A stretch of DNA of 27,838 nucleotides from a virus: positions 1-27,838 of the IMG/VR virus record IMGVR_UViG_3300005826_000031; one strand, 5' to 3'. The notes under the pieces were generated by a model. It did no database searches. It was not told the DNA's origin and saw only the letters and a list, made by a program, of their open reading frames with translations. This document shows, piece by piece, positions 3,397 to 27,838 of the stretch; positions within the stretch are counted from its first letter, which is position 1; the number at the start of each line of letters is the position of its first letter. The position numbers and the translations under genes are program-made.

Positions 3397-3460
3397 CGAG
3401 ATTCTCCTGTTCGTCTCGGATGGGGTAATTCCGATCTGGTTCTAAGACACCCCAGGGGCT

Positions 3461-4471: not shown

Positions 4472-4493
4472 GTGTCAACTTGGTTAGATCGAA

Positions 4494-7442
4494 TTAACCC
4501 CGTGAAGGCATAGACAGCTTCAACTCACCCACGAGTTCGCGTAACTCGCCGAGTCTCCTGCCTAATCCGGTGTTGCTTTCCATAATCTGCTCTAAGCTGT
4601 CTTCCATTCTCTTCTCATGATCACGATTGCCAGATAGCAATTCTTGCTCTGTGATTGGCCGATAATTCGAGGATTGTCTTATTAAAGGCCACATGCGGGA
4701 CAGGCTTGCCGAGTCACGCATGTATTTGCGCAGGTCGTCGGACATCTCGCCGCTCTCGGCCTTCGCTGGCTGTCCACCTTGCATCTGGGCAGCCTGAGCT
4801 TGCTGCTGGAGTTGGATTTGGCCTTGGACAGCCGCCTGCTGCATCTGCTGTTTGCCTTGGACGTCGAGCTGGAGGCCCATGGATTTGGCCTGGACCTCGG
4901 CATCGGCGAGCTGCTCTTGGTGGCGCTCCTTGATGATGTACTCGACTTCGGAGTCGGAGAGCCCGAATATTTTCGATAAGATCCAATGCATGGACACGAA
5001 CTGATTCATCCGACCCGCAAAATCTGCCTTCGCGTTCCGCACCTCAAGCTGGGCCAGCTCGAAGATGGAAGACGGAATCGTCATGTAGATCTCGTAGTCC
5101 ACCCGCGCCGGGTCGATGCCCAGCGACGCCAGATGAACACGAGCGATCTTTTTCAGCCCGTTCCTGATTTCCCGTTGTAAACGAAGGACAGTGCGGGCAA
5201 ACCTCACATCCTCCTGCGATAGCGTACCCTTAGCCCGTGGTGCCTCGCCGCCGAGATACACCTTCGGAATTTTGATCGCCGCAAACAGCTTCGACCGGAA
5301 GTACTCGATGTCCTCCATGTGCTGCCACGCAGGACTTCCAACGACATCGATCTTCGTTTGCTGAACACCTTTGCGCACCGGAACGAAGAAATCTTCGTCC
5401 TGGGAGTTTCGCACACTTACGCCGCTTTGAGGTATCGGATTACCATATGAATCCTTCAGAAGCAGCGCAAAGTTGTGCCACTTCTCGACGGTCATGCAGT
5501 ACATGTCGACCGGCTCGACTTCCTCGACCGAGACGACCTTGTGATTGTTGGGGCCGTCCTCGTCGAGGCACGAGCGCTTAAAGTCAGCGAAGCTCTCATA
5601 GCCAAGCTGGCGATACAGCTTGAGCAACATGTGACGATGCACCGCCTTGACGGACCGACGATTGGCAGAATCGAGCCCCATCAGCAGCGACGTGCCGCCA
5701 TTGATAGCCCGTACAACGCCCTCGGCGCGAATCTTCGGGTTCTCACGAATCAGCGCACGGAGACCCGCGATGAATTCCTCAGGAAATGTGAGGTGCATGC
5801 GCTCACGGGTTTTTGCCGCGCGCTCCTCGTCCTGCCAGAACTCAGTCTTGCCCTTGCTGCGAATCTCGTTGTCGCGAGCATGTTGCTCACTCGCATTGTA
5901 GGCGCGAATGTGTTGAGCCGTATCGTAGAGTCGGTTCAGCTCTGTCGTGCGCCTCCGCTTCTCGGGGCTCTTATTGTACGCAATCAGGTCAAGAGTTCGA
6001 TCAGGAGCATGTTCCTTCGCATGCTCAACAGGATCCATCACATCGAGGTTGCATGGTTCATTGTTGAGACGGTTATGATCTCTATGATGGACATGCTTGC
6101 CATCGATGTCCCAGCCAAGCCCTTCCGCAACAACACGATGAGTGCTCTTATAAGCCTTCGTTTCAGGGCAATACCAACTCTCGTAATTTGAACTAGCGAA
6201 CCTGCGCCGGTACAACGGCATCACAGAATCGCCAGGCTTCAAATCCTCGGCGTTCACATACCGGCAGTCGCGCATCATCACAGGATGGTCGGGCGCCATC
6301 ACCGCATGGCCACCGTCGTCGAACGTGATCTTCAGCGCCCGCCCGTTATCCCTCGTCTTGCCTACCCAAGAGACTTCGCCTGGAACTGGCTTGCCAGTCT
6401 CTCGGTCGATCGAATAGACCCAATGTTTCTTGCCCTCGACGTGCTCCTTCGCCATCTCCTCGATGGTGATGTTCCTCCCATCGAGCAATGGGATATACTC
6501 CCCTTTTCCGACCGGTAAAGGGTTGAATTTAAGATCGAGCTTGCCCGTCTGGCTATTGTAGAATTTTGTCTTTTTGTACTGTTGTCTGATTTTATGAAGA
6601 TACGCTAATGCTTCTTTAGGAGGAAGGTCTCCGACATCGATATAGAAGGCGTAGCGCTGTGGGGCACGCTGGAGGCGGTAGACCATAGCTGCATCTTCCA
6701 GCAACATCAGGCGCTTCCAAATCCAGCGAGCTGGTTCGAAGACGGCCGAGCCGTACATAGCGCGGCGTTGTTTGGAGCGCAGGCGCATATGGACGACTTC
6801 CCAGTCCTCCATGGCTGCGTATTTGTTTTGGCTAGGGGTAGCGGCGGAGGCCATCCGCTGGGTCAATAATTGCTTAAATTCGTCGGGCGAAAATCCGAAG
6901 CGACCTTTGAAGTCTTGGACAAAGCCAAAGAGTTCGCCACGGCGGCCTTCGATACGGCGGATGGTAGGGGGAGGGAGGTGGTTAAGGCCAACGACTCCGT
7001 CCTGGGTAACGAGCATTTCCTCGTAGTCTTGTCCGTACTTAGCTAAGGTTCTAGCGATGGACCAGATTTCTTCATCGATGCGGAGTCTGCGCCAGAAGAG
7101 GTCTTCTAAGATCGTCTGAACGGTCTTGTCGGGGGAGTCGACCCAGACAGCTTTTCCTTGCAAACTCTCTACTTGCGTCGCGTCATCCGCGTAAACATCT
7201 AAGGCAGTTGCGAGGATGGGGTCGTCATCCATTTCCTCATAGTCCACGTATCTCGACATGAGATCGTGTTCAAGCTTGAGGTAGTCACTAAGGACATCAT
7301 ATCCATAGGCTTGGAGGAGATCGAAGCCTGTTTGAGGATAGCTAGAGGCGGTCGAGCCTTTGGCGAGGCTGATGACAATCTGTTCTTTGTCCCAGCGGAG
7401 AAGGTTGCGAACACGGCCTGAGACATTTCCAAAGAATCCCAA
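4494..7442 (-). CDS. Portal protein (T4 gp20-like) interrupted by an intein
   Basis: 982 aa as encoded; about 612 aa after removing residues 310-679. The exteins carry the gp20-like pattern: AFYIDVGDLPPKEALAYL (about 265-282), KKTKFYNSQTGKLDLKFNPL (290-309), then after the intein SQDEDFFVPVRKG, TKIDVVGSP, HMEDIEYFRSKLFAAIKIPK and GTLSQEDVRFARTVLRLQ. This ring protein forms the DNA entry vertex and docks the terminase. The C-terminus is Gln-rich (862-890), then helical. The start appears to be TTG: no ATG lies between the preceding stop and this point, and AAGGA sits nine bases upstream. The intein lies in a conserved stretch, so portal function should depend on splicing. The portal call is strong; the exact start is moderate. 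Confidence 0.92.
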   Translation of the reverse strand: MGFFGNVSGRVRNLLRWDKEQIVISLAKGSTASSYPQTGFDLLQAYGYDVLSDYLKLEHDLMSRYVDYEEMDDDPILATALDVYADDATQVESLQGKAVWVDSPDKTVQTILEDLFWRRLRIDEEIWSIARTLAKYGQDYEEMLVTQDGVVGLNHLPPPTIRRIEGRRGELFGFVQDFKGRFGFSPDEFKQLLTQRMASAATPSQNKYAAMEDWEVVHMRLRSKQRRAMYGSAVFEPARWIWKRLMLLEDAAMVYRLQRAPQRYAFYIDVGDLPPKEALAYLHKIRQQYKKTKFYNSQTGKLDLKFNPLPVGKGEYIPLLDGRNITIEEMAKEHVEGKKHWVYSIDRETGKPVPGEVSWVGKTRDNGRALKITFDDGGHAVMAPDHPVMMRDCRYVNAEDLKPGDSVMPLYRRRFASSNYESWYCPETKAYKSTHRVVAEGLGWDIDGKHVHHRDHNRLNNEPCNLDVMDPVEHAKEHAPDRTLDLIAYNKSPEKRRRTTELNRLYDTAQHIRAYNASEQHARDNEIRSKGKTEFWQDEERAAKTRERMHLTFPEEFIAGLRALIRENPKIRAEGVVRAINGGTSLLMGLDSANRRSVKAVHRHMLLKLYRQLGYESFADFKRSCLDEDGPNNHKVVSVEEVEPVDMYCMTVEKWHNFALLLKDSYGNPIPQSGVSVRNSQDEDFFVPVRKGVQQTKIDVVGSPAWQHMEDIEYFRSKLFAAIKIPKVYLGGEAPRAKGTLSQEDVRFARTVLRLQREIRNGLKKIARVHLASLGIDPARVDYEIYMTIPSSIFELAQLEVRNAKADFAGRMNQFVSMHWILSKIFGLSDSEVEYIIKERHQEQLADAEVQAKSMGLQLDVQGKQQMQQAAVQGQIQLQQQAQAAQMQGGQPAKAESGEMSDDLRKYMRDSASLSRMWPLIRQSSNYRPITEQELLSGNRDHEKRMEDSLEQIMESNTGLGRRLGELRELVGELKLSMPSRG
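5406..6515 (-). other. Intein with HNH endonuclease domain inside the portal gene; atypical N-terminal junction
   Basis: Residues 310-679 (370 aa) separate two portal segments that join naturally as KFNPL/SQDEDFF. Intein blocks are visible: block A around GEYIPLLDGRNITIEEMA, then HWVYSIDRETGKPV and VSWVGKT, block B at HAVMAPDHPVMM, an HNH motif at HVHHRDHNRLNN...CNLDVMDPVEHAKEH (450-478), block F at VDMYCMTVEKWHNFAL, and block G at GVSVRN with +1 Ser680. Aligned on the conserved DG of block A, residue 1 is Pro310, not Cys, Ser or Thr. Block F carries Cys649 where canonical inteins usually have Asp, as in class 3 inteins, but I do not see that class's Trp and Thr. The penultimate residue is Arg, not His. 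It is probably active or recently active, since the domain is complete. Confidence 0.88.
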
Positions 7443-10085: not shown

Positions 10086-10357
10086 TGGCTCGATTCCTTC
10101 TCCAGCCTCTCTAGTTCACGAAGGGCCATATCGAGGCGGCGGTAGAGGTTACGTAGCTTGACCCTGGCGCCACGAATCTGACCTTTTCCAATCGCGGTTG
10201 ATACCTGCATCATCATCGACGCATTCATCTGCATCATCTGAGCGAGGGCTTTGGTTTTTGACGTGAGTCGTTTGGAAGTTGGGATCGGCGGCTGCCAGCC
10301 CTCTTGGATGAGGTCTGAAAACCTTCGAAAGCCGACGTGATTCTGCTCAGGCATCAT
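10082..10357 (-). CDS. Small helical Met-rich protein coupled to terL
   Basis: 91 aa, mostly helical. The middle is Met-rich (AQMMQMNASMMMQVSTAIGKG) and the C-terminus is a charged helix with heptad-like leucines (VKLRNLYRRLDMALRELERLEKE). The start ATG overlaps the terL stop (TAATGATG) and the stop overlaps the next start (ATGA), so it is translated as part of the terminase operon. No known domain. Its position could suit a packaging accessory or a head completion factor, but that is only context. Confidence 0.7.
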   Translation of the reverse strand: MMPEQNHVGFRRFSDLIQEGWQPPIPTSKRLTSKTKALAQMMQMNASMMMQVSTAIGKGQIRGARVKLRNLYRRLDMALRELERLEKESSQ

Positions 10358-12360
10358 TACCCCTGGATAAACGGCAACATGAAGTCGTCGTCATCGACCA
10401 TATCATGCTGTTCTTGGGTCGCCGGATCGGACGTCTTCGATAGCCCTTTCACGATGCCCATGGGGGGACCGTGATATCTGGTGCTCAAGGTATACACGAT
10501 ACCAGCCAAGGCATCTGAGACGTCCTTCGTTTTGCCTCTGGGGTGATCGACCTTGTTCTTAATGTTGTCTTTTTGGAGTGCGCGCAGTTCACGCAGAAGA
10601 GGCTCGTATTTGTAGAAGTAAACCCTCTCCTCGTAGATCGCCGACTTCAGTGTATCGTACGCATCCATGGGCTTATCAACCGACATCCGCTCTGCCGTCA
10701 TTCCTTTTGACGCGAACTTTTGAAGCGACGCGGCGCTATTGAATTGGTCCATTGTAATAAGTCCAATATGGAACCCATGTTTTTGAAATTGATACACAAT
10801 TCCGCGAATCATCCCATGATCTATCTCGCCGCCAATAGGTGGATTGACCTTCAATAAAAAGTCGACCCAAATGATAGGAGCCGGCTCAACATACTCCTCC
10901 TGGGTCTCCTTGTTGCGACGACGAATCTGCTTGTATCCGAGCACGCACCCGACTGCAATTCCAGTCGAATCCGTATTCAACGAAGGATCGATATGAATAT
11001 GGCGAGAAAGCCCAGGATGATGTTTGGGCTGCCAAGTCACCCCCTTCTCAGCACCGTCGCGAATCTCAACTTGATGAGCTAGTTTCGTCCAATTGATTCC
11101 ACCGCCCTCGGTTTGCACCCACTCCTCTACGCTAAAGGGGTGGTCACGGCTCTCGTCAATGCAGTTGAGAATTCGATCGCGCTGTTGAATGAACGGAGAA
11201 ATTGATACCGTTGCAACCCCAGCAATATCGCGAATCGCGCCATCTAGATCTTCTTCGAAATCACGACGGAAATCGACAGGGACCTCAACGATAACCATAC
11301 CATCTTGAATCTTCGCCTGAACAATGTCGACCTCTTCAGGTCCTAGAATTTTAGACGGCGTCGTGTCATTCCCTACGAGAACATGGAACTTCTTGTCCGA
11401 GAAAACGCCTTCTTTCACATGCCAAACAGCGTAGTCACGAACAAACACCGTCGGATCATCCTTTGACTGCCTGATACGCTTGGCCGTAAAGTCCTCATGC
11501 GTCTTCTTAGAAGATACAATAATCATCATGCCAGGCAGCTTGCCATGTCGCTGGAAACGAGACTTCATACGACGAAGAAGTTGAGAATAAAGGAATTCGG
11601 CACGGTCTTCGACGTCCGCCTTGTTAGGCGCATTCTTCTTCCTCATCGGCGCTAAAAAGTTGCTCTCATCGACGATCGCCCCGAAAATGTTAAGCCCCAA
11701 CACAGCACTGTCTGTCGCCGCACGAGCCGCTACCCAGATATTGCCAGGGAACAAAAGCTCCTTCTTGGTCGGTTTACACTCGAAATGATCCTTGAAATAC
11801 TGACTCGCTTCAATCTTGTTCGCAATGTTCTCGAACACAACCTTGATAGCAAGAGGCTCAGACACGGAAAGAGCGACGAACGAGATGTTCGTTCCCTGAC
11901 CGATACCAAAGCTGCGATGCGGATCACGCATACATGACAGCTCATACAAGACTCTGCACACCGCAATCGAAGCGAAAAACGTTTTGCCGGTGCCAATCGC
12001 CCCTGTCATAATCGCTTCGCGATACCCGCCACTAAACAACTCTTCCAGGTCTTTCAGCAGCTTGGGGAAAAGCACATCACAAGTCTTGCCCAGATAGTAA
12101 GGATCTCTTACGAAGGTCTCAATATCGACAGGCTTTCGCTTGTACTCGCTGTCCTGAAGGACATCCATGATGCGAGTCGGCGGCGTTTCCCCCGACTCCT
12201 CCAGCTCACGAAACGCAGGGTCATCCATCTCGCGAAGGCACAAAAGAGCCGCCTTCTGCTCCTCCCTGGAAAGGCTTGCAAATTCCTTGCGGAGAAGCCC
12301 AGACAGCTCCTCGGGGGTTTGCTCACTATGAAGTCGGCCGCCCAGATCTTTAATCGCCAT
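10357..12360 (-). CDS. terL: Terminase large subunit
   Basis: 667 aa packaging motor. The ATPase domain shows Walker A at 120-127 (GAIGTGKT), Walker B at about 225-232 (IFGAIVDE) and a candidate coupling motif at 281-284 (IVSS). The C-terminal RNase H-like nuclease domain shows HIHIDPSLNTDSTGIAVG with Asp458, LITMDQF with Asp538, and KTKDVSDALAG with Asp613/Asp616 as candidate metal ligands. It cuts concatemeric DNA and drives it into proheads through the portal. The ATG is two bases after the stop of the upstream gene, with CAGGAG before it. No intein is present here. Length is normal for a terL. Confidence 0.95.
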   Translation of the reverse strand: MAIKDLGGRLHSEQTPEELSGLLRKEFASLSREEQKAALLCLREMDDPAFRELEESGETPPTRIMDVLQDSEYKRKPVDIETFVRDPYYLGKTCDVLFPKLLKDLEELFSGGYREAIMTGAIGTGKTFFASIAVCRVLYELSCMRDPHRSFGIGQGTNISFVALSVSEPLAIKVVFENIANKIEASQYFKDHFECKPTKKELLFPGNIWVAARAATDSAVLGLNIFGAIVDESNFLAPMRKKNAPNKADVEDRAEFLYSQLLRRMKSRFQRHGKLPGMMIIVSSKKTHEDFTAKRIRQSKDDPTVFVRDYAVWHVKEGVFSDKKFHVLVGNDTTPSKILGPEEVDIVQAKIQDGMVIVEVPVDFRRDFEEDLDGAIRDIAGVATVSISPFIQQRDRILNCIDESRDHPFSVEEWVQTEGGGINWTKLAHQVEIRDGAEKGVTWQPKHHPGLSRHIHIDPSLNTDSTGIAVGCVLGYKQIRRRNKETQEEYVEPAPIIWVDFLLKVNPPIGGEIDHGMIRGIVYQFQKHGFHIGLITMDQFNSAASLQKFASKGMTAERMSVDKPMDAYDTLKSAIYEERVYFYKYEPLLRELRALQKDNIKNKVDHPRGKTKDVSDALAGIVYTLSTRYHGPPMGIVKGLSKTSDPATQEQHDMVDDDDFMLPFIQG

Positions 12361-12362: not shown

Positions 12363-13109
12363 TTACTCCTGGGACGCATCCGAACCGTCATCATCAATCT
12401 TCTCGCGAGCCTCGACATCGATAACAGGCTGCCCTGCCGACGCAGCAGCACTGGCGACCAAATCTCCAGCGTCAATGTGCGCCTTGTTAGCGATAGCCAT
12501 TAGCGTCTCGACAAATCCAAGCACTTTTCTTCGACTGTCCGGATCAGCAATCACTCTACCAACACTGTCATCATATCGATCTGAAATCTGTGCAGCAGAC
12601 GCACCAGTCACCGAAACTTCACCCAACTGGCGAGTCGCCAACCCCAAGTCCATCTTCAAATCCGAAGACTGCTTGAGAATTTTCATCGCATAGAAAATCT
12701 CTCTGCCCGTCGTCGGTAACAACTTATTGATCTTTTCTTCGTTCGACACATCAATCTTGATGCGCTTCATCTGAAGAGCATACAGCTTCTCAAGCTCTTC
12801 CAGCTCCTCTAGCCCCTCAGCCGTTCTCCTGTTCGCGTACTGACGAGCACGATGATTCTGAGCCGTCAGCGCTATCTCGGTCGGAGGGATTGTCTTACGA
12901 TACTCGTCGACCATCTTGCGAACATAGAGATGGGACAAGTCAGTCATCTCGTTCGCATCGTTCTGAACGTATTCAGCAATCTTATGCGAAGACCAACCAA
13001 GGCGTAGCCTTCGATCAACTTCGGCTACACACCTGCAATTTTCAATCTTCTTCGCCTTTGGGAGGTTACGACTTACAGGGCGAATTCGAGGTTTCTTGTC
13101 GTCAGACAC
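12363..13109 (-). CDS. Terminase small subunit candidate
   Basis: 248 aa, directly upstream of terL with a two-base gap. Residues 28-70 look like a helix-turn-helix region (EVDRRLRLGWSSHKIAEYVQ, LYVRKMVDEYRK). A long helical middle follows (GLEELEELEKLYALQMKRIKID, EIFYAMKILKQSSDLKMDLG), and the tail is acidic. This N-terminal DNA-binding plus central oligomerisation layout, with the position next to terL, is what small terminase subunits show; their sequences diverge so much that similarity alone rarely proves it. The start is GTG, with AAAGG ten bases upstream. A 24-bp dyad lies about 80 bases before the start. Moderately sure. Confidence 0.7.
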   Translation of the reverse strand: MSDDKKPRIRPVSRNLPKAKKIENCRCVAEVDRRLRLGWSSHKIAEYVQNDANEMTDLSHLYVRKMVDEYRKTIPPTEIALTAQNHRARQYANRRTAEGLEELEELEKLYALQMKRIKIDVSNEEKINKLLPTTGREIFYAMKILKQSSDLKMDLGLATRQLGEVSVTGASAAQISDRYDDSVGRVIADPDSRRKVLGFVETLMAIANKAHIDAGDLVASAAASAGQPVIDVEAREKIDDDGSDASQE

Positions 13110-13226
13110 CTTGGTTGTACCTTTCGAGATCCAACCAAGATGCTAACGCAAAAGCAACCGACCCACAAAGGTCTGAAACTACTTTCGTTGACCCACGCAA
13201 GTATTTGCGCAGGTATCCAATGATCT
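13110..13226 (-). promoter_or_regulatory. Leader/intergenic region before the packaging operon
   Basis: This 117-base gap separates the last kinase-like gene from the terS candidate. It contains the dyad at 13191-13214 and a smaller inverted repeat GACC...GGTC (about 13160-13173). I could not find a convincing -35/-10 pair for the minus strand here, so a promoter is inferred from the gap and the shared dyad, not seen. Confidence 0.4.
13191..13214. promoter_or_regulatory. 24-bp dyad, probable operator (copy 1)
   Basis: The pattern is ACC-N2-CGCAA-N4-TTGCG-N2-GGT, with all eight arm bases pairing on each side of a four-base spacer (GTAT). A second copy lies at 19975-19998 and a near-identical half-degenerate copy inside the portal gene. 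Its symmetry and length suit a dimeric repressor or activator site. Confidence 0.6.
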
Positions 13227-14471
13227 CTACCCTTTTCTCATCTCCGCAGCGAAGTCGAACTTCTTCCCAAGCGCATTCGACATCAAAACACTAACACCCT
13301 CTGCGATCTTAGCACTCACCGTCCCTTCGCCTCCAATGAATCCACGACGAATTGGGACAAGCACATTCCTTATGTACTCGAACGGACGGTCCAGCACCAG
13401 CTCTGGCTCGTCCTTTAGATGAGCAAACCTGCCCCACATTCCAGCAACATTCGCAGCGGGCACACCTACTTCAACGAGCACCTGCGTCAGAAGAGACGCC
13501 AGCTCATCATTCATTCCCTCAGTTACCTGCCTTGCTGTCGCCAACCACTCATCCTTCTGCCCGTCCGTCATTGATCCGAACAAAAACATCAGCTCATTGC
13601 TGTCCGCAGGCATCGAAGGCTCAGCAGGTTTCCCTGGTGCAGCAGGCTTCCGCCCCCAACCTTCCGACCGCGAACGAAGATACCAATCCGCCGTTTTGGC
13701 AGGATGCGGCCAACACACCTGGGTCGCGTAAAACACAACCACGTCATTCGAGCGGACATAGAACAAATCCGTCAACGTTCTATTCGCCGAAGCCAGTAAC
13801 AAATCTAAAATAATCGCACGGTACATGCTGTGCCTCAGCCGATCCGAAGCAGAAGCCCAGCGATCCTTGTCGGAAACACCTGAAAATGACCAGTACTCCG
13901 CGAAGTTCTTCCCGTTCACCGGCAACATCTGGAGCAGTGCTCCAGTACCGTATGACTCATCAACTTTGATGATCGAAATCCCATAATGCTTGGCAACTCG
14001 TTCGCGAACAGCATCTGAAATCAACGGAACGAGATTGATTTCGCGCGCAGCCACCGGCGCAGCCATGTCCTCCATGCCAAACGCCTTGGCAGCTTCGTAG
14101 AATGCCTGCTGCCGCCTCAGAAGGTCATTATTCTCTGGCGAAAGCGAATATTCCTCCCCCCAGACCTCGTACATTGCGGACCCGCGAATGCCGCCAAGTG
14201 ACAAGAGCCCACTCCGTAGCTCACCCGCCTGTCCACGGTAGCGAACCCATAGATTCCCATGCAGCACGTCGACAACCCGCTCCTCCACATGCTCAATCTC
14301 AACCTGCCGCAAGAAATCCCAAAGAACGGGCTCAGCCATATTCCAGGGGGGATTACTGGTTGAGCCATCAATGCGACGAGTCGGCTCCATCAGCAAAGAC
14401 GACGCATGATAGCTCGGTTCTGCAGCAAGGGCTGCAACGTCGAGATTGGACTGCGCAGCTTCATTCGCCAT
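13227..14471 (-). CDS. Degenerate PI3/4-kinase-like protein (module 3 large protein; probable pseudokinase)
   Basis: 414 aa. It shares with the other two large proteins of this block the helix pattern RQQAFYEAAKAFGMED-x-AAP (120-139), typical of PI3/4-kinase-like and SCO1664/HipA-type folds. It also has the 'catalytic' segment ILDLLLASANRTLTDLFYV, then VVVFYAT (221-250). The residues that should be catalytic are changed: Asp to Asn230, the following Asn to Asp235, and the metal-binding Asp pair to Phe247/Ala249. The C-terminal half is related to the module 1 large protein: NVAGMWGRFAHL...DRPFEYI...RRG, then EGVSVLMSNALGKKFDFAAEM. A Pro/Ala-rich linker covers 270-290. It starts inside the end of the small partner gene (11-base overlap). 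The paralogy is visible; the fold is inference. Confidence 0.7.
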   Translation of the reverse strand: MANEAAQSNLDVAALAAEPSYHASSLLMEPTRRIDGSTSNPPWNMAEPVLWDFLRQVEIEHVEERVVDVLHGNLWVRYRGQAGELRSGLLSLGGIRGSAMYEVWGEEYSLSPENNDLLRRQQAFYEAAKAFGMEDMAAPVAAREINLVPLISDAVRERVAKHYGISIIKVDESYGTGALLQMLPVNGKNFAEYWSFSGVSDKDRWASASDRLRHSMYRAIILDLLLASANRTLTDLFYVRSNDVVVFYATQVCWPHPAKTADWYLRSRSEGWGRKPAAPGKPAEPSMPADSNELMFLFGSMTDGQKDEWLATARQVTEGMNDELASLLTQVLVEVGVPAANVAGMWGRFAHLKDEPELVLDRPFEYIRNVLVPIRRGFIGGEGTVSAKIAEGVSVLMSNALGKKFDFAAEMRKG

Positions 14472-14754
14472 CTAATTCCAACTCCGCTTTCGGAAGAAGC
14501 TCCACAAGGTCGGGCGACTTGCCGATATATTTGAAGGAAGATCTTACATCTGAGACAACAGCAGGATACATGGGCGAATAAGCTCCGCCATAGGTGATCA
14601 TCGCCTCCCTCAAGGAGGCGACACCATCCATTTCAACATCAACAAACGCCTTGGACGGATGCGACTTCCTTACCATGACGCCGCCTTTCTGTTCCCAGGC
14701 CACAGCAACAACTTGATCGTAGGCAGAATTTATTACAAAAAGTACGTTAACCAC
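14461..14754 (-). CDS. Small partner protein of module 3
   Basis: 97 aa. The N-terminus VNVLFVINSAYDQVVAVAWEQKGGVMV is beta-rich and resembles the start of the module 1 partner (QVFAINPNTGEPGSIVGYAWQGQDGVL). The C-terminal half is less alike. It has no cysteine pair, membrane span or enzyme motif. It begins 12 bases after the kinase-like gene of module 2 and overlaps the next gene by 11 bases. Same size class, same position before a large kinase-like gene and a similar N-terminus suggest a third member of the partner family, more diverged than the other two. Confidence 0.6.
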   Translation of the reverse strand: MVNVLFVINSAYDQVVAVAWEQKGGVMVRKSHPSKAFVDVEMDGVASLREAMITYGGAYSPMYPAVVSDVRSSFKYIGKSPDLVELLPKAELELDGE

Positions 14755-14766
14755 AGATCTTCACTT

Positions 14767-15957
14767 TCATTTCTCAAGTTCTTTTCTCATCGCTCTCATG
14801 TCAGCGCGACGCTGTGCAAGATCGAACCTACTGACGCTCTTAACTTTCCTCCGGGCCAGCGTCTTTTCAAGTCCGTGAACAAGCAAGTCGCGAGCATTCT
14901 TCTGCAAATGGAGAGCATCATCCTTCTCAAGGCCAAGAGAGTGATCGTCTTCCACATGCCCACCGGCCGCAAGCCATTCCAGGGTCTTCTTCATGCGCGG
15001 AGGGTAATTTTTACCAACCCCATCCATCTTGTGACGGTAGTCTAATACACCGCCTTCAGCATATGGAGTCATGACACGCTTGAGCGCACCGCTTTGTTGA
15101 CGGGAACTTAAAATCAAATCATGATCGACATCTATCGTGTGGCCTGACGGATGCAATAAAACATTGCCAGAATTTCCGTCGTTGTTCGAAAACAAAACAT
15201 GACGAACAATGCCATGCAGTCGATGCTCACCATCGACATTTTTCAAGTCATCTTCGTTAGCAAGCCAAATTGGAACCGCATCGTGGACATGCTCTTGAAT
15301 ATGCGAATCCTCCCCCATGTGAGCATGCACCGAAGACATTCGATCTCTTATCGAAGCATCCTCCGCTGGCTTCTCTCCAATCCTAACATTGGGACCCATT
15401 CTATCGTCGCCGTGAGCCTTGCCCCCAAACCCGGGAGCCACCATGTGATGCGACCCCATCGCAGCAGCAACAGCATAAACTGCATTGTGCCTAGATGCCC
15501 ATCGATCCGACTGCCAGTTTGGATTAGCTAGCTTTTCGTCTTTTTCGTGGCCTGCGCCAGCATTCTTTAGCGGCTTTACAACAATGCGCTTTTCGCGATC
15601 GTTAGCGCCCGACTCAACTTTTGCAAAGTGAACATTATTGGCCGACCCAGGCGCATGTCGTGTATGGACAGTTTTTGCCCTTGGATGAGTGTAGGCATCC
15701 ACCAAAGAACGATGCCGCTCTGCTGCGGACGGCAAGTCAGGGCGCGTCCGAGAAGCCAAACTTGGCTCCTCATGTTCAAACTCACCCATAACCGCAGGAG
15801 GAGGATCAAAAACCCGCTGCTGAGGTTGCTGCTGCGCCTGCCTAAGCTTAGCAATCGAAGTCCCTGCTATTGTCTCAGCCCTCGCCCTCCTAGCCGGGGC
15901 TTCAAACAGCTTTCCGTGCTCAAGGAGATGGCGAGCCAGGACCCACCGACTTCTCAT
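14767..15957 (-). CDS. PI3/4-kinase-like protein with intact catalytic motifs (module 2 large protein)
   Basis: 396 aa. Candidate motifs in order: nucleotide-binding Lys128 in RIVVKPLKNAG; helix ASRHNAVYAVAAAMG (154-168) ending in VAP; catalytic loop SNNDGNSGNVLL (257-268) with Asp260 and Asn265; metal-binding TIDVDHDL (274-281) with Asp276, Asp278 and Asp280. This order (Lys, N-x-D-x-x-x-G-N, then ID-x-D) is that of PI3/4-kinase-like, HipA-like and related atypical kinases. The N-terminal 120 residues are Gln/Pro/Ala/Arg-rich and probably disordered; the C-terminus is basic and helical. It overlaps the small partner by four bases (ATGA). The substrate could be protein, lipid or a small molecule. 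A phosphotransferase role is inferred from motifs. Confidence 0.65.
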   Translation of the reverse strand: MRSRWVLARHLLEHGKLFEAPARRARAETIAGTSIAKLRQAQQQPQQRVFDPPPAVMGEFEHEEPSLASRTRPDLPSAAERHRSLVDAYTHPRAKTVHTRHAPGSANNVHFAKVESGANDREKRIVVKPLKNAGAGHEKDEKLANPNWQSDRWASRHNAVYAVAAAMGSHHMVAPGFGGKAHGDDRMGPNVRIGEKPAEDASIRDRMSSVHAHMGEDSHIQEHVHDAVPIWLANEDDLKNVDGEHRLHGIVRHVLFSNNDGNSGNVLLHPSGHTIDVDHDLILSSRQQSGALKRVMTPYAEGGVLDYRHKMDGVGKNYPPRMKKTLEWLAAGGHVEDDHSLGLEKDDALHLQKNARDLLVHGLEKTLARRKVKSVSRFDLAQRRADMRAMRKELEK

Positions 15958-16211
15958 CTGATCACCTCAACACGAATTAACGCACTCTGATGAAGTCGCG
16001 TACGAAACCATTCCAAAGGCGATACGCCAACCATGTCAGCTTGAATCGTTACATCTTCGGGGGAAACGGGGATAATCCCATTCCACAAACCATCCACGCG
16101 AACGTCCCCACTCGGATCCTGCCTAACACTCGCGGCGTAATCCTCTACCAACTCTCCGTCGACAATACGAACCTGGTAAATAACCAGACGGCGAAGATCA
16201 GCTTTCGGCAT
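15954..16211 (-). CDS. Small partner protein of module 2
   Basis: 85 aa from the ATG at 16211, preferred over an in-frame ATG at 16235 because GGAG lies seven bases before it; the longer form would add eight residues. Beta-rich N-terminus (LRRLVIYQVRIVDGELVED). The C-terminus VSPLEWFRTRLHQSALIRVEVI matches the module 1 partner (MSPLNMLYASIARSAFFRAEFV) in spacing and key residues (SPL, SA, R-x-E). It overlaps the end of the module 1 large gene by 14 bases and the start of the kinase-like gene by four. Function unknown; tight coupling suggests it acts together with the kinase-like protein. Confidence 0.7.
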   Translation of the reverse strand: MPKADLRRLVIYQVRIVDGELVEDYAASVRQDPSGDVRVDGLWNGIIPVSPEDVTIQADMVGVSPLEWFRTRLHQSALIRVEVIR

Positions 16212-17823
16212 TTGGCGTCTCCAACTTCGGGTCATCCTCGTCCGACTTCATTGACTTCACGAAGTCGAAATCGTGAACCATCGCTTTGGACAGGGTCTTA
16301 TTCACGAACTCCACCACACCCTCTAGCTCAACCTGTTTTTGCCCCGACCGCAATCCAGTTAAAAAAGCAACTGCCATATATGGATCTCTGGCAATATCTT
16401 TTGCATGCGTCTTGGACAACCAGAGTCGTGCAAGAACAGCCGCGACATGGCACGACGGCATGCGCATATCCAACAAAGACCGTGACAATTCAACAGGGCG
16501 ATCAGCTTTAATCATCCGGTCTGTCACTGTATGGGCAATCTGCTCAAATTCGGCAAGTTCCCTATCTGAACCGCGAACCGACAACCTAACGGCCAAATCG
16601 CTCATCAGCATGGGAATTCCAGCCGCAACATCTCCCATGGGGTCACCATAGCTCTTATACGATGAGGAGACGTATTCCTCCGCCTGAGCACGAGGGCAAG
16701 GAACGCTCAGCTCATTCCCCAGTGCAAGCAGCGGATAGCGCGCATCATCGCAGATCGTTAAGTCAAGGAAGCTGCGAGCGCTGTTCCATGCAATAAAATC
16801 CAACAACACAACACGAAGCAGCTCAAGACGCGTACCCGGAGGAACGATGTCCCAGAAATTTTCTGCAAACTCTGACCTCTGCTGATCACTGGAAGTATTC
16901 GAAAAGAAATCAGAAAACCAAGGCTCATCAACCATGGGATGCCAAGAGCCTTTTCTGTATTGCACGGCCGACGGACCGCCGGCCTTGCGTCTCACATCAT
17001 CAGGGCTTTTGCCAGTCTCTCTGGAAACCCATTCGACCATGGCTTCGCGAGCTTCCACGAGCCCATCGGGAAGTACATGATAAAGATCTCCACGCCTATC
17101 TACTCTGCGTACGGTAGGAGGAACTAGCCCGTCAAGCCCACACGACTTTGAGATTTCGTAATAGGCTGCAGCGTGCCGACCATACGCAGGATAGTCACCT
17201 TCCTTAGAAAGGAACTTACCCCAAATTTTAGCCGACGATGGATCGCGAAGTTCATCCATCCAAAGAACGGCATCATATGAACCGGCGACATCATCCTTGA
17301 TGGAGGCCAGCATGATACCTTTGCGATCTCCAACGAACTTCAGCCTTTCAATGAAGCCAGTCTTCAATGAGTGTGTCAGCCGCTTCTCATCGACCCCCCA
17401 GAACACCGGATCGGTAGCATCGACCGTAATCGTCGACACATCTGGGTTAATCGGATTTGTCGGTCGGAGATGCCTGTTCTTCGAGTCGAAGCGCGCCTTT
17501 ACCTCGGATGGAATTGGATCCTTCGGCGTCTTTTCCCGGGACTTCGTTTTCCACGGAATGTCGTGATAAGACACGGCCATCCGGACGGCCGGCTCCTCCT
17601 GCTCAACGGGGGCAGCCTGCTGACCTCCGCCACCCTGCTGATTGTTAATTATTGCATCCGCAGCATTCTGAATCGCATCCGGCGTTAGATTCGCGTATTG
17701 ATCCCCCGGATCAGCCTTCTTCACATAATACGCTTGACGAACGACCTTCGTCTGACCGTCGGCACCTTTCTTTCTCACATTCTTAATGACACGCATCAGA
17801 TGAGGACCGAACGTCATCGCCAT
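16198..17823 (-). CDS. Degenerate PI3/4-kinase-like protein (module 1 large protein; probable pseudokinase)
   Basis: 541 aa, the longest of the three. An N-terminal basic region and Gln/Gly linker (1-80) precede the kinase-like part. Residues 172-187 contain a candidate nucleotide-binding Lys (SIKDDVAG). Residues 215-236 read GRHAAAYYEISKSCGLDGLVPP, which strongly resembles the helix before the P-P-T segment of PI3/4-kinase-like proteins. The catalytic segment is LLDFIAWNSARSFLDLTI then LLALGNEL (340-372). Here the catalytic Asp is Ala349, the following Asn is Asp354, and the metal Asp positions are Ala367, Gly369 and Glu371. The C-terminal region matches module 3 (HVAAVLARLWL...DPYMAV...LRSG, EGVVEFVNKTL...DFDFVKSM). 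It starts two bases after its partner with GGAG upstream. Confidence 0.7.
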   Translation of the reverse strand: MAMTFGPHLMRVIKNVRKKGADGQTKVVRQAYYVKKADPGDQYANLTPDAIQNAADAIINNQQGGGGQQAAPVEQEEPAVRMAVSYHDIPWKTKSREKTPKDPIPSEVKARFDSKNRHLRPTNPINPDVSTITVDATDPVFWGVDEKRLTHSLKTGFIERLKFVGDRKGIMLASIKDDVAGSYDAVLWMDELRDPSSAKIWGKFLSKEGDYPAYGRHAAAYYEISKSCGLDGLVPPTVRRVDRRGDLYHVLPDGLVEAREAMVEWVSRETGKSPDDVRRKAGGPSAVQYRKGSWHPMVDEPWFSDFFSNTSSDQQRSEFAENFWDIVPPGTRLELLRVVLLDFIAWNSARSFLDLTICDDARYPLLALGNELSVPCPRAQAEEYVSSSYKSYGDPMGDVAAGIPMLMSDLAVRLSVRGSDRELAEFEQIAHTVTDRMIKADRPVELSRSLLDMRMPSCHVAAVLARLWLSKTHAKDIARDPYMAVAFLTGLRSGQKQVELEGVVEFVNKTLSKAMVHDFDFVKSMKSDEDDPKLETPNAES

Positions 17824-17825
17824 GG

Positions 17826-18152
17826 CTATGCCTCCACAAATTCCGCGCGGAAGAACGCGCTCCTCGCAATCGATGCATACAGCATGTTCAGCGGAGACAT
17901 GTCAGTGGCAATCGATCCGACCTGAAAAAACGAAGCAGCAACAGGCTCCGAAATTAACGCAGCAACAACGCCAGAGCCTTCCAGCACACCATCCTGACCC
18001 TGCCATGCGTAACCGACAATCGAACCAGGCTCACCCGTATTCGGGTTAATAGCGAAGACCTGAAGCTTTCGACGATCGCCAACAACGTCGCCATCCATGA
18101 CTTCGCCACCCTCGTCACCATGGAGACCGTTCTCGTCCAACATGTCAGACAT
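17826..18152 (-). CDS. Small partner protein of module 1
   Basis: 108 aa. An acidic, probably disordered N-terminus (1-26, with DGDVVGD) is followed by a beta-rich part (RKLQVFAINPNTGEPGSIVGYAW) and a helical C-terminus (MSPLNMLYASIARSAFFRAEFVEA). The C-terminus matches the module 2 partner. GAGG stands before the ATG, and the stop is two bases before the kinase-like gene. It follows the ParB-domain gene by two bases. No known domain, so only family relationship and coupling can be stated. Confidence 0.72.
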   Translation of the reverse strand: MSDMLDENGLHGDEGGEVMDGDVVGDRRKLQVFAINPNTGEPGSIVGYAWQGQDGVLEGSGVVAALISEPVAASFFQVGSIATDMSPLNMLYASIARSAFFRAEFVEA

Positions 18153-18154: not shown

Positions 18155-18940
18155 CTAGTTCCTCAGCCGTGCCGCGGCATCCTCGACAGCCTCGGTCAGG
18201 TAGTCATTGATGTCGATGACATTCTGCCTCGAAGCATCCATGATGATCTTCATTGCATCCCGGAGGCGTTCACACATCGCGATGTAGATATGGTCCTTGC
18301 CGCCCCACGAGAAAATAACAAAATTGTAGTCTACCGTCTCCCCGTGCTCAGACATGATCTCAGAGACCACCCGGCCAATATCGCCTGACGTCTTAGACTT
18401 CCGCGCACGACTCTCGAAATCAGCAGCTGCCTCAGGCCCAATACTCCCCCTGAGCCCATCAGACACCTGCTTGATCATTTTCTTAATGCCGTCATCGCTC
18501 GCGTAACCAAGCATTCGGGTCACCTTCTTCCCGTACTTGGCCGCCATGTCATTATAGAGCTTCATCATCTTCTCGGGATTCATGCTCCCGTGAAGCACAT
18601 TGAAACGAACAGCCTGAAACTTACGAATATCTTCTTCCTGCCACTTGTCACCCTGGAGAATGTCAACAGGAATAGATGGCAACCCTAAATCACACGCAGC
18701 AGCAACACGATTGTGCCCTCCTACGATCTCATAATAAGTAGAGCCATCCTCTGATTGAACACGGGCAACGGTGGGAGGATCGATAAACCCGAACTTCTTG
18801 ATGCCTTCCTTGAGCATTTCGAATTCATCGCGAGTCATCTCGTTTGGATTCCACTCAGCTCCCCTCAGGTCACCAGGCGCCATCACCTTTCTATCGATAT
18901 CCAACCCATCACGGACAACCTTGAGGCCGGGATCTTTCAT
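18155..18940 (-). CDS. ParB/Srx N-terminal domain protein
   Basis: 261 aa. Residues 12-95 show the ParB N-terminal fold: VMAPGDLRGAEWNPNEMT, then EEGIKKFGFIDPPTVAR-like spacing with FGFIDPPTVARV (50-61), then YEIVGGHNRVAAACDLGLPSIPVDIL (70-95) with the ParB box II GGHNR at 74-78. Such domains bind CTP in ParB proteins and have been turned into nucleases or ATP-using enzymes in phage and plasmid relatives. No ParB-type central DNA-binding HTH is obvious; the rest is helical (FNVLHGSMNPEKMMKLYNDMAAKYGKK, IYIAMCERLRDAMKIIMDASRQNVIDINDYL). It overlaps the preceding gene by ATGA and leads into the kinase-like modules. A partition role is unlikely without a ParA in view. Confidence 0.8.
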   Translation of the reverse strand: MKDPGLKVVRDGLDIDRKVMAPGDLRGAEWNPNEMTRDEFEMLKEGIKKFGFIDPPTVARVQSEDGSTYYEIVGGHNRVAAACDLGLPSIPVDILQGDKWQEEDIRKFQAVRFNVLHGSMNPEKMMKLYNDMAAKYGKKVTRMLGYASDDGIKKMIKQVSDGLRGSIGPEAAADFESRARKSKTSGDIGRVVSEIMSEHGETVDYNFVIFSWGGKDHIYIAMCERLRDAMKIIMDASRQNVIDINDYLTEAVEDAAARLRN

Positions 18941-19152
18941 GAATCAAGAACTTCCGCAACGGCCATCAGCCTCTCAGCAGCAAGCAAAATCTCGCCACGC
19001 AGCTGATACCTGAATATTTCGATGTTCATGTCGTTCGACGGTATCTCATCGCCCGGAACACCAGCAGATAGCCGCTCATGCCACTCCCCAAGTATCTTAG
19101 TAACTTGTTCGATCTCTGAGCGAAGAGTTTCAGGCCGCATTCTCATCGTCAC
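18937..19152 (-). CDS. Small helical protein of unknown function
   Basis: 71 aa, predicted mostly helical (LRSEIEQVTKILGEWHERLS, FRYQLRGEILLAAERLMAVAEVL). The start is a GTG overlapping the stop of the regulator gene (GTGA); an ATG two codons later is an alternative. The stop overlaps the ParB-domain start (ATGA). No known domain. Overlaps on both sides make translation likely. Confidence 0.65.
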   Translation of the reverse strand: MTMRMRPETLRSEIEQVTKILGEWHERLSAGVPGDEIPSNDMNIEIFRYQLRGEILLAAERLMAVAEVLDS

Positions 19153-19949
19153 GAAACCACCTCCCTGTAAGGGGCATCATTAGTCTTCGATCTTTTTACA
19201 GGAACATTCTTGACGTCATCATCACACAGATATAGTCTCCACATATCCTCAGTGAGCAGCATCATGCGACCCGAGATCATCGCACGCTCAATCTGAACAC
19301 GCGTGTGGCGACGAAGATCCCAGCATCGTTTACATAACCCATCCCCAGAATGTCTCGTGCGTTCACAATCCCCAGACTGACCGCACTGACGACATTGGTC
19401 CAAATCGTAATGAAGAGACCACTTCCTTCTTTCGTCTCTTAAATAGGCGATGATTTCGTTTACCTGATCAAACGTAATCATATATTTGCGAAGACCATAC
19501 CTCTTCCAATTTTGCCCCAAATTATCACGGGCTCTCTGTATCTGGCGCCAGTCGTAGCCTGTGTCCCGCTCAATCTGAAGACGAGTATATGTACCTTGGG
19601 TAGGTGAAAAGCCAAGCTCATAACAGCGACGCTCTATCGCTATTCGGTTCCGCCCTGGCAACTGGTCCATCAGCTCGAATATATTCAGATGGCCAACATT
19701 CTTAACAAGAACAAGATCTTCCTCCTTCCTCCAAGGATAAGTCACCTTGCCAAGTCGACACCCGGCGCGACGCCCCTTCTTCTCCCTGAGCCTTAGCTCA
19801 GTCGCCTTCGTGCGTATCGACTGAACACTCTTTCCTATCCGATTCGCCACCTCAGCATCACGAACAGTACCCCACAGTCGTACCAAGTCCTCCACTTCAT
19901 CTTTAGTCCAGCGATTCCGCTTACCTTTTCTTGAGTCAGAATCCCCCAT
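19149..19949 (-). CDS. SANT/Myb-like and zinc-finger DNA-binding protein, candidate regulator
   Basis: 266 aa. Residues 12-52 (RNRWTKDEVEDLVRLWG...AEVANRIGKSVQSIRTKATEL) and 72-114 (YPWRKEEDLVLVKN...LPGRNRIAIERRCYELGF) look like two SANT/Myb-type DNA-binding repeats with their Trp and 'R-x-x-x-x-x-R-x-x-x-L' helices. Residues 122-170 resemble a MerR-like winged helix (DWRQIQRARDNLGQNWKRYG, ITFDQVNEIIAYL). Residues 186-209 hold a cysteine cluster (Cys186, 189, 195, 206, 209) likely to bind zinc. It is the first gene after the promoter and dyad at 19956-19998, six bases from the -10 box, so the transcript may be leaderless or a later start used. It may control its own operon and the terS dyad; that is inference. 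Confidence 0.75.
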   Translation of the reverse strand: MGDSDSRKGKRNRWTKDEVEDLVRLWGTVRDAEVANRIGKSVQSIRTKATELRLREKKGRRAGCRLGKVTYPWRKEEDLVLVKNVGHLNIFELMDQLPGRNRIAIERRCYELGFSPTQGTYTRLQIERDTGYDWRQIQRARDNLGQNWKRYGLRKYMITFDQVNEIIAYLRDERRKWSLHYDLDQCRQCGQSGDCERTRHSGDGLCKRCWDLRRHTRVQIERAMISGRMMLLTEDMWRLYLCDDDVKNVPVKRSKTNDAPYREVVS

Positions 19950-19955: not shown

Positions 19956-19984
19956 ATTCTATGGCGGATCTTGATCTCGTGCAA
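19956..19984 (-). promoter_or_regulatory. Sigma-70-type promoter for the regulator/ParB/kinase operon
   Basis: On the minus strand a -35 box TTGCAC (19984-19979) is spaced 17 bases from a -10 box TAGAAT (19961-19956). The -10 has five of six consensus bases and the -35 three of six. The -35 box lies inside the right half of the dyad at 19975-19998, as for an operator that blocks polymerase. Transcription would start at or within a few bases of the ATG at 19949. Confidence 0.55.
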
Positions 19985-19998
19985 ATACTTGCGCGGGT
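19975..19998. promoter_or_regulatory. 24-bp dyad overlapping the -35 box, probable operator (copy 2)
   Basis: Same architecture as 13191-13214 in the opposite orientation: ACC-N2-CGCAA-N4-TTGC-N3, with a perfect left arm and a partly degenerate right arm. Read on the minus strand, 18 of 21 aligned bases match copy 1, plus the flanking G before ACC. Confidence 0.6.
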
Positions 19999-25562: not shown

Positions 25563-25938
25563 TTCGGTACGCCTCCAGCAATTCCTGGACGAATCCGGCA
25601 GGCAGCAACACCCAGTCTCGCGAAACGAACTTAGGTGGGTTGTCTATCTCAATCGAGAGAGCAGGAATCTTGTCATACTGAACAGCCTCTTCAGTGATCT
25701 TTTTCAAATAGTCGATTTTAATACTGATGCTCTTTTTGTCCGTCCTCTTGCACTCAGCAAGTAATTCGACAGCCCGGACATCCCCACGCTTACCCGCAAC
25801 AGCACCAGAACCTGGCTGCCTATAGCCCCCAAGCTTGAACGCTACCCGCTCCTCTTGCTTGATCGACTTTTTGCGCCTCTTCTTCTGCTCGTTGTCGCCC
25901 CGGAAATATGCAGGCAGCTTTGAGTCATCCTCGCTCAA
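25555..25938 (-). CDS. Hjc-like PD-(D/E)XK nuclease, candidate Holliday junction resolvase
   Basis: 127 aa. The pattern PGSGAVAGKRGDVRAVELLAECKRTDKKSISI gives candidate active-site residues Glu30, Asp53, Glu62 and Lys64 (E...GD...ExK), followed by a helix (LKKITEEAVQYDKIPALSIEID) and a final strand (RDWVLLPAG). This order (G-S-G, G-D, E-C-K-x-T-x-x-K-S) is that of archaeal Hjc-like and phage resolvase nucleases. The start is TTG, overlapping the recombinase stop as TTGA, with GAGG seven bases before it. A basic, probably disordered N-terminus (KKRRKKSIKQ) may hold DNA. It may equally be a different branched-DNA nuclease. Confidence 0.7.
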   Translation of the reverse strand: MSEDDSKLPAYFRGDNEQKKRRKKSIKQEERVAFKLGGYRQPGSGAVAGKRGDVRAVELLAECKRTDKKSISIKIDYLKKITEEAVQYDKIPALSIEIDNPPKFVSRDWVLLPAGFVQELLEAYRSG

Positions 25939-27838
25939 AGCGATGCCTCATTCTCCATCACGTCGCTCAAAAGATGATCTAAAAGCTTCAACTTGAAAGC
26001 TTCATATTCAACGTGATTAGTCATCCAATGCTCGATCAAATCAGCCTTGCCCTCGTATTCAAAACCATCGCAAATCGTAGGAGCACGACCTTTTCCGATC
26101 ATAACCAAGCCCGCCTGCTGGCCTAACTTCGCCGCATAATTCTCGTCGGCAACTTCGCCAACACGCTTGTACTCCGTATCCTTCAAAACGAGGATGTACT
26201 CGCCCTCCATCTTTGCGGGGCCGCACTTGTTCTTCTCGTTCCTCAGCTTCATCGTCACGCACTTCGTTCGACCTGTCTCATCCTTCTCATATTTGCCAGG
26301 CGACATGCGCGTTTCCGTGGACGTAGCGAATCCCTGAGCAAACCCTCCTGGGACTGTCTCGGGCGATCCAAACACCAGTCCGACCTTGTGACGTATCTGA
26401 TTGGTAAACCATACCGTCGGCCGCCTTCCGTCGCGCGTAGCTAACGAATTGATGCCGCCCACGAGCTTGCGAAACATCTTCCCGAGCAACCGCGCCTGCT
26501 CGCCCATCGTCGCTTCCGAAGCCGACTTATCCAATTCAGCAATCGGAATCATAAACGCGACAGAATCGATCACGATAATATCAACTGCCCCTGAGCGAAG
26601 CAGCGTATCTGCGATGTCACAAGCCTGCTCGCCAGTCTCGGGCTGAGACAGGACCACGTTATCGACATTCAGGAATCGGGAAGACCAGACATGATCCCAG
26701 ACGCCCTCCACATCGAGCCAGGCAATATTGGTCATTCGGTAATTGCCACAAACGCATGACGGATTCTTTTGCGTGTGGCTTGGAGTCCAGATCGGAAACG
26801 CAGGCGTCCAACAATTGCTGCACATACGCTGAGCGCGACCTGCTGCGCGTAAAAAAGCTGTCGTCTTACTCGAATTGTGGACAATAAACGAATCAGCAAC
26901 AAAATTATTGTACGGGGCAAGCATTTCAACATCATAAGTAGGCTTCAGCCCCTCACTTTCAATGCTGACCACTTCAACTTCATGAGCATAGCCACAACCA
27001 AGCTTACGCTCCTTCGCATGCAACACGCCGTGAGACACTGAATCAATAACAGCCAGATTGGAAAGAGAGTCGTTCAGATGGTTTTCATCGATATGATGAA
27101 CATGCTGTTCTGACCGAAGAAAAACCAACCCATCAAGTTCACCACTGTTTAACCTGTCAACATACTCAGGGAGGCTACACCCATTCATATACGCTTCAAC
27201 AACCGCCCTCGACCTAATAAGCCTGTGATATGTGTAAGATTTTATGTTTTTAGTACGTTCATTGACGGGAGTGACCGTATGTTCGGAAGCATGAGGATGA
27301 TGCTTGACACTAATATATTTTCTCGAAGATGCCGTCACCTTATCTGTGTCAGGTTTGCTTCTCCTGCTGACGGTAACAGTGTCACCAACGCGGATATCAC
27401 CAAGCCTCTTATAGCCAGTTCCAGTAAAGAACTTATGATCGGAAGTCGCCGATATCGTTTCCCCTGTCGAGACCGTGAGTCGAAAACATTCTTTAACCCC
27501 AGACTCAACAACGTTGACAACTCTGTTATGAAAGACCCTTCCGTCATCATCGACGGAAGGAATTAAGAAGTAAGATCCTTCAGTTTCTGGACGACTATAA
27601 TTCCCTTGCCCTCCGACTTCTACTCCATTAAATCGCTCATAGAGCCTTTTTATGGTTCCGCCCTTATGATTCTGTCGCTTATTGTCAGCAGTCCTGACTT
27701 CGTAGCCAATGAAAGTATCTTCGGCCAGGCATGATTTCGGGCCATAAAACAAAGAAATACGACCGACAGGCAAGCCTCCGCCGAGCGTATAGTCAAGGGC
27801 TAACACCCCTGTCGACACACGAGGAACCTCCTTGTACC
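25935..27838 (-). CDS. RecA/UvsX-type recombinase interrupted by an intein (N-terminus reaches the window edge)
   Basis: Homologous-recombination ATPase. Numbering uses the GTG at 27818. STGVLALDYTLGGGLPVGR and FYGPKS precede the intein; SSKTTAFL follows. Then a four-Cys insertion (Cys333, 336, 355, 357), LDVEG (368-372), Walker B VDIIVIDSVA (412-421), MGEQARLLGKM and NQIRHKVGLVFGSPETVPGG (473-492), a close match to the RecA core. The joined P-loop would be GPKSSSKTT, with Ser in place of the second Gly of the bacterial form. The GTG has AAGGAGG eight bases upstream, but the frame stays open to the edge and reads YKEVPR before the STG. RecA-type proteins usually have more residues there, so the true start may be outside. 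Confidence 0.9.
   Translation of the reverse strand, partial: YKEVPRVSTGVLALDYTLGGGLPVGRISLFYGPKSCLAEDTFIGYEVRTADNKRQNHKGGTIKRLYERFNGVEVGGQGNYSRPETEGSYFLIPSVDDDGRVFHNRVVNVVESGVKECFRLTVSTGETISATSDHKFFTGTGYKRLGDIRVGDTVTVSRRSKPDTDKVTASSRKYISVKHHPHASEHTVTPVNERTKNIKSYTYHRLIRSRAVVEAYMNGCSLPEYVDRLNSGELDGLVFLRSEQHVHHIDENHLNDSLSNLAVIDSVSHGVLHAKERKLGCGYAHEVEVVSIESEGLKPTYDVEMLAPYNNFVADSFIVHNSSKTTAFLRAAGRAQRMCSNCWTPAFPIWTPSHTQKNPSCVCGNYRMTNIAWLDVEGVWDHVWSSRFLNVDNVVLSQPETGEQACDIADTLLRSGAVDIIVIDSVAFMIPIAELDKSASEATMGEQARLLGKMFRKLVGGINSLATRDGRRPTVWFTNQIRHKVGLVFGSPETVPGGFAQGFATSTETRMSPGKYEKDETGRTKCVTMKLRNEKNKCGPAKMEGEYILVLKDTEYKRVGEVADENYAAKLGQQAGLVMIGKGRAPTICDGFEYEGKADLIEHWMTNHVEYEAFKLKLLDHLLSDVMENEASL
26874..27731 (-). 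other. Canonical intein with HNH endonuclease, inserted in the recombinase P-loop
   Basis: Residues 30-315 (286 aa). Cys30 begins block A (CLAEDTFIGYEV). Block B is ETISATSDHKFFTGTGYKRL with Thr and His. A HNH motif lies at HVHHIDENHLNDSLSNLAVIDSVSHGVLHA (239-268). Block F is PTYDVEMLAPYNNFVADS. Block G ends FIVHN with Asn315, followed by +1 Ser316. All class 1 key residues are present, so it should splice. It interrupts the ATP-binding loop between the two Ser of GPKS/SSKTT, so the recombinase cannot bind ATP unless the intein leaves. The HNH core resembles that of the portal intein (both have HVHH-x-D-x-N/H-x-L-N and C/S-N-L), which suggests related homing enzymes. Confidence 0.92.

Follow-up and report, generated by a model that had tools for sequence, protein, structure and literature searches.

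The 27.8 kb virus record IMGVR_UViG_3300005826_000031 (the whole stretch of DNA analysed here, referred to as the window) contains a block of six genes that encodes three small proteins (S1, S2 and S3) and three large proteins (L1, L2 and L3) in the order S1-L1-S2-L2-S3-L3. We tentatively interpret this block as a cassette, conserved among phages, for a kinase under the control of pseudokinases, a reading that we regard as possible, though short of probable. Judged by its residues, L2 is the only large protein of the window with an intact active site, and L1 and L3 appear to be catalytically dead. The six open reading frames lie exactly where a preliminary description of this DNA had placed them, all on the minus strand and with gaps or overlaps of at most 14 bases:

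S1, 17826..18152, minus strand: small protein of 108 amino acids, paralogue of S2 by profile comparison
L1, 16198..17823, minus strand: predicted pseudokinase of 541 amino acids with PI4K-II fold, homologous to L3
S2, 15954..16211, minus strand: small protein of 85 amino acids, paralogue of S1
L2, 14767..15957, minus strand: PI3/4-kinase-like protein of 396 amino acids with intact active-site residues K128, D260, N265 and D278
S3, 14461..14754, minus strand: small protein of 97 amino acids, unrelated to S1 and S2
L3, 13227..14471, minus strand: predicted pseudokinase of 414 amino acids with PI4K-II fold in its predicted structure

The junctions are a gap of 2 bases (S1/L1), an overlap of 14 (L1/S2), an overlap of 4 (S2/L2), a gap of 12 (L2/S3) and an overlap of 11 (S3/L3). 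The start of S2 at position 16211, and not at 16235, is consistent with the relatives.

Fold and active sites of the large proteins

The preliminary description had called the large proteins PI3/4-kinase-like, which is borne out by predicted structures of L3 and L2 and, for L1, by homology to L3. The L3 model, built on 20 sequences (predicted local distance difference test, pLDDT, of 83; predicted template modelling score, pTM, of 0.87), superimposes on PI4K type II beta with a Z-score of 21.5 and a root-mean-square deviation of 3.3 for 265 aligned residues. The next structural matches are Fam20 (Z about 14-15), CtkA (13.6) and actin-fragmin kinase (13). HipA and HipT are absent among the structural matches listed, which does not exclude them. 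The L2 model was built on nine sequences (pLDDT 67, pTM 0.68) and matches PI4K IIalpha more weakly, with a Z-score of 13.5. L1 and L3 are homologous over their full length (profile E 4e-22; Smith-Waterman z 17.8). The relationship of L2 to these two proteins is undetectable by sequence alone, but profiles of nine sequences align it collinearly over the αC helix and the catalytic region (E 0.0006 with L3, 0.0023 with L1 and L3 together). By these profiles L2 is a distant kinase, related to L1 and L3 at the superfamily level only.

The Pfam family PF00454 (PI3/4-kinase) matches eight of nine L2 sequences (best E 2.8e-4) and 3 of 20 L1 and L3 sequences (best E 0.0046); all of these matches stay below the gathering score (27.1 bits, compared with 21.3 bits for the best L2). 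Searches of PHROGs, NCBIfam and PADLOC gave no useful match for the six proteins. The top match of an L1 profile among PDB sequences is the pseudokinase FAM20A, at a non-significant E of 2. Phage polyvalent-protein kinases possess a Ser/Thr/Tyr-type kinase domain that lacks the C-terminal subdomain (PMC5512222); the L3 model, in contrast, aligns with PI4K-II over both lobes.

Active-site residues were read from alignments of 9 L2, 10 L1 and 10 L3 sequences. The ATP-binding lysine (K128), the catalytic aspartate (D260), the metal-binding asparagine (N265) and the DFG-type aspartate (D278) of L2 are present in all nine sequences, very diverged ones included. The glycine-containing loop mostly reads GS-x-N, and the lysine lies within an [AVSL]-K-P motif. 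A helix motif that had been noted as common to the large proteins is indeed present in them, except that its spacing to the glycine is 7 residues in L1 instead of 6. The kinase motifs N-x-D-x3-GN and D-x-D, also mentioned in that account, occur within the window in L2 only.

L1 has lost the ATP lysine in nine of ten sequences, the metal asparagine in all ten and the DFG-type aspartate in nine; its catalytic aspartate is kept in eight of ten but lost in the window copy, which lacks all four residues. In L3 the catalytic aspartate is lost in 9/10 sequences, the metal asparagine in 10/10 and the DFG-type aspartate in 9/10, and the window copy is without the catalytic and the DFG-type aspartate. 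For both proteins pooled, the metal asparagine is missing from 20 of 20 sequences and the DFG-type aspartate from 18 of 20. The least eroded copies are the L1 of genome L165 and the L3 of genome L089 (Lys, Asp and Asp retained in each), which suggests a repeated loss of catalysis from active ancestors.

Ratios of nonsynonymous to synonymous substitution rates (dN/dS) were calculated from two genome pairs and are a rough measure, with dS saturated in several comparisons: 0.05-0.16 for L1 and L3 (computable values), 0.12-0.34 for L2 and 0.13-0.69 for S3. In both pairs all six genes are under purifying selection, with a weak constraint on S3 in one of them. Since L1 and L3 are retained and constrained despite the lost residues, we define them as pseudokinases that are presumably inactive. 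The operon thus places a paralogue with lost active-site residues beside an active-looking kinase, as expected for an arrangement of the Fam20 type. The first 46 residues of L1 (window 17686-17823) carry a conserved motif, LxRVxKxVxR...VxQAFHVKKAxPGDxYA, and a variable Pro/Gln-rich linker comes next. This N-terminal motif of ~45 amino acids occurs in L1 proteins only and could be a docking peptide.

Relatives and gene units of the cassette

Direct tblastn searches with L1, L2 and L3 against 50,697 phage records gave no matches, and scans of IMG/VR with single-sequence patterns of the three proteins found no relatives. Relatives were found in IMG/VR by way of the terminase and then with family alignments, which yielded nine more distinct genomes of large uncultured phages (L007, L087, L088, L089, L091, L094, L161, L165 and L166), their contigs being 25 to 200 kb long. 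The clade has an eleventh member, L090, on a contig that ends before L3. All six proteins are conserved in other genomes. The gene order S1-L1-S2-L2-S3-L3 is found in nine of ten genomes, the window included, and overlaps of start and stop codons are usual. Searches of whole records revealed two L-type genes in every one of the nine relatives, eight of which also have a single L2; each of six records checked contains two S-type genes and a single S3. Bacterial and archaeal genome contigs searched with the L3 and L2 alignments contained no relatives.

The deviating genome, L087, is the nearest relative of the window (TerL identity 85%). It has the order S1-L1-S2-L3 and lacks exactly L2 and S3. 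Its S2 and L3 genes overlap at TAATG; in the window S2 overlaps L2 at start and stop. The profile searches proposed in the preliminary description confirmed for S1 and S2 the similarity it had seen in their C-terminal segments (SPL...S...R-x-E), with E 2.8e-13. S3 did not resemble S1 or S2 in these searches, although profiles of 9-10 sequences were used, and comparison of the S1, S2 and S3 sequences with solved structures gave no significant match.

Because L087 is without exactly L2 and S3, S1 and S2 are homologous and S3 is unrelated to them, the better reading is that the units are S1-L1 and S2-L3, one duplicated pair of a small and a large gene, with L2-S3 nested in the second. A duplication of one pair had been proposed and is retained (L1 and L3, S1 and S2); the idea of three equivalent copies and the pairing of S2 with L2 and of S3 with L3 found no support. 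L2 may be an insertion or a much diverged third copy. L1 and L3 separate into two groups in a joint tree, and the duplication is therefore older than the radiation of these phages. L087 groups with the window in this tree (100%), so that the absence of L2-S3 from L087 is most simply explained by the loss of one unit.

Flanking genes and a palindromic box

As described before, the block is flanked by a ParB-domain gene on one side and by the terminase genes on the other. The flanking features are:

Palindrome GCGCAAATACTTGCGT, 13195..13210, minus strand: upstream of terS, candidate operator
Palindrome, second copy, 19979..19994, minus strand: upstream of the D5-like regulator, at the start of the operon
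D5-like DNA-binding regulator, 19149..19949, minus strand: first gene of the operon (phrog_323, E 5e-13)
ParB-like nuclease-domain gene, 18155..18940, minus strand: directly upstream of S1 (phrog_26387, E 7.7e-47)
Putative TerS, 12363..13109, minus strand: precedes TerL in the relatives, with a weak phrog_35167 match only
TerL, 10357..12360, minus strand: 35-36% identity over 84% of its length to Vibrio phage terminases

A gene for a protein of 71 amino acids is also located upstream, in addition to the ParB-like gene and the D5-like regulator. On the other side, 117 bases separate the cassette from the putative TerS, which we label as small terminase from its gene position and which is followed by TerL.

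A palindrome of the form RCGCAA-N4-TTGCGY occurs in the gap between L3 and TerS in all ten cassette genomes and in the clade fragment L090; in L089 and L090 it takes the covarying form ACGAAA-N4-TTTCGT. It is followed in this gap by a promoter-like sequence, as judged by eye. With at most one mismatch, the box recurs 41-49 bases upstream of the D5-like regulator in eight of the nine genomes in which this start is present; the copy in L161 has three mismatches. Such a site turns up in 3% of random 280-base stretches. In loci without the cassette the palindrome was found upstream of TerS in none. The palindrome is probably an operator, and from the positions of its copies the cassette is predicted to end an operon headed by the box that also heads the terminase operon.

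Other phages whose terminase is of the same type have ParB, a TerS-like gene and TerL side by side or with unrelated genes, for instance DNA polymerase, between them. We considered the cassette as a diverged form of other genes in the ParB-TerS gap and rejected this, as the remoter relatives (TerL identity 50% or less) hold DNA polymerase or large unrelated proteins there. In L008 the gap contains, between ParB and the DNA polymerase, a protein of 1808 amino acids with no Pfam matches (616-6042). Genes seem to have been gained in this gap repeatedly.

The terminase of L087 (8430-10040) seems to have an intein-like insert at its Walker A motif, and TerL matches longer than expected were also seen in L030, L094 and L120-L122. 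In the window, the portal gene (4494-7442) and the gene of a UvsX-like recombinase (25935-27818) each contain an in-frame HNH-endonuclease segment; these segments are probably inteins.

Proposed mechanism, alternatives and known systems

Based on the residues, the models and the gene positions we propose the following mechanism. The cassette would be made together with the packaging genes under control of the palindromic box. L2 would transfer phosphate, to a protein substrate more likely than to a lipid. L1 and L3 would serve as allosteric activators or scaffolds that bind L2 or the substrates of L2; the dead partner would activate the live one as in Fam20C/Fam20A, where the pseudokinase Fam20A binds and activates the kinase Fam20C (PMC4421793). 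S1 and S2 would be translationally coupled partners of L1 and L3, and S3 the partner of L2. The cassette would act in DNA packaging or in a late takeover of the host. We infer the activity of L2, the complex, its substrate and the packaging link. In its complete form, with two dedicated pseudokinases and three small adaptors in control of one active kinase of PI4K-II fold and with the terminase's palindromic box coupling a phosphorylation switch to DNA packaging, the proposal is doubtful.

Several observations weigh against a regulated kinase. The glutamate of the αC helix is not evident in L2 (RHxAxY), and the L2 model is of middling quality. The stronger constraint on L1 and L3 than on L2 fits a structural role at least equally well. 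L087 keeps both pseudokinases without L2, although this genome is a 42 kb fragment and L2 could be elsewhere; accordingly, either L1 and L3 act without L2 or the L087 phage is decaying. The evidence for a packaging link consists of gene position and the shared box.

The main alternative, which we consider rather unlikely, is that the kinase fold was recruited for a scaffolding role in the head or the packaging machine, so that the six proteins are structural or packaging accessories and any catalysis by L2 is a side function or a vestige. The location of the cassette directly before terS and terL with a shared box, the higher conservation of the pseudokinases and their persistence without L2 in L087 agree with such a role, as does the PI4K-like gene 16 of the haloarchaeal myovirus HSTV-2, which is situated between the genes of a capsid protein and the tail sheath. 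A pure scaffold, however, has no need of the full active site that L2 shows in nine of nine genomes; gene 16 of HSTV-2 likewise retains its catalytic motifs, and the genes at the front of the operon are those of a DNA-binding regulator and a ParB-like protein instead of head genes. That the genes are instead three equivalent tandem pairs of small protein and kinase, with S3 and L2 diverged beyond recognition, is quite improbable. Small and large genes do alternate and L2 shares the kinase superfamily with L1 and L3 (E 0.0006-0.002), but S3 has no profile similarity to S1 and S2 while these two still match each other, and the absence in L087 pairs L2 with S3 and not S2 with L2.

A toxin-antitoxin or host-shutoff set similar to HipBST, in which each of the small proteins keeps in check a toxic kinase with a host protein as substrate, is also improbable. 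It would account for a small gene translationally coupled directly before a kinase-like gene, as HipS precedes HipT (PMC10627512, PMC9325769). Two of the three large proteins, however, look dead, S1-S3 have no sequence match to HipS or to any other protein among solved structures, nine proteins compared with the PADLOC defence-gene models gave no match at E up to 1, the gene order in the packaging region is strictly kept and not patchy, and L2 and S3 run with the kinase first and the small gene second. That the cassette encodes a genuine phosphoinositide lipid kinase with host membranes as its site of action is very improbable. The attraction of this reading is that the nearest solved fold, PI4K type II, belongs to a lipid kinase; the fold is silent on the substrate, however, the protein kinases Fam20 and CtkA come next among the structural matches, and most bacteria contain little or no phosphatidylinositol. 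We keep a kinase regulated by pseudokinases as the working interpretation.

PI3/4K-like genes are already known from tailed viruses as annotations. In the open-access literature we found no phage pseudokinases of PI4K-II fold and no description of a phage set of an active-looking kinase with two pseudokinase paralogues and small partners. Work on pseudokinases is almost all eukaryotic, and bacterial ones have hardly been examined by experiment (PMC12599244). In the present cassette active-looking and dead members are adjacent in a compact phage set, with one natural case in which the active member is missing, and the loss of catalytic residues can be traced stepwise across ten diverged versions. 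It would offer a simple test system for the change from an enzyme pair to an enzyme with a regulator, and might bring to light that phage packaging or host takeover involves a phosphorylation step.

Among known systems, HipBST is similar in that a small gene precedes the kinase gene. The phage set differs by its dead kinases, by the lack of any sequence link and by the lack of HipB, since the genes before the block encode the ParB-like protein, the 71-residue protein and the D5-like regulator. The SCO1664 family (TIGR03843), a bacterial PI3/4K-like family, is matched in its αC region by the L1 of the most diverged phage (E 0.0023), far under the curated cut-off; to our knowledge it is not part of a multi-gene set of kinase and pseudokinases. 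The haloarchaeal myovirus genes annotated as phosphatidylinositol kinase (HSTV-2 gene 16, HRTV-11, HCTV-6) also place a PI3/4-kinase-like protein inside a virion gene cluster (PF00454, E 1.5e-5), and a halovirus member of this kind surfaced in the fold search with L3. They are single genes with an intact catalytic motif, and pseudokinase paralogues are not annotated alongside. HSTV-2 gene 16 corresponds to L179 10647-12119 and is kept in related haloviruses.

The PI4-kinases type II (human PI4K IIalpha and IIbeta) share their overall fold with L3 and L2, and the L2 motifs G-S-x-N, KP, N-x-D and D-x-D follow in the same order. Identity in the structural alignments is 8-10%, however, L1 and L3 are without the catalytic set, a lipid substrate is not known for the phage proteins, and the phage genes share one operon with small partner genes. 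Fam20C and Fam20A differ in being secretory and eukaryotic and in having no small partner genes, and the corresponding phage complex is a proposal. They resemble the phage set in that Fam20 is a fold neighbour of L3 and that an active kinase stands beside a dead relative with lost active-site residues (PMC4421793, PMC5413348).

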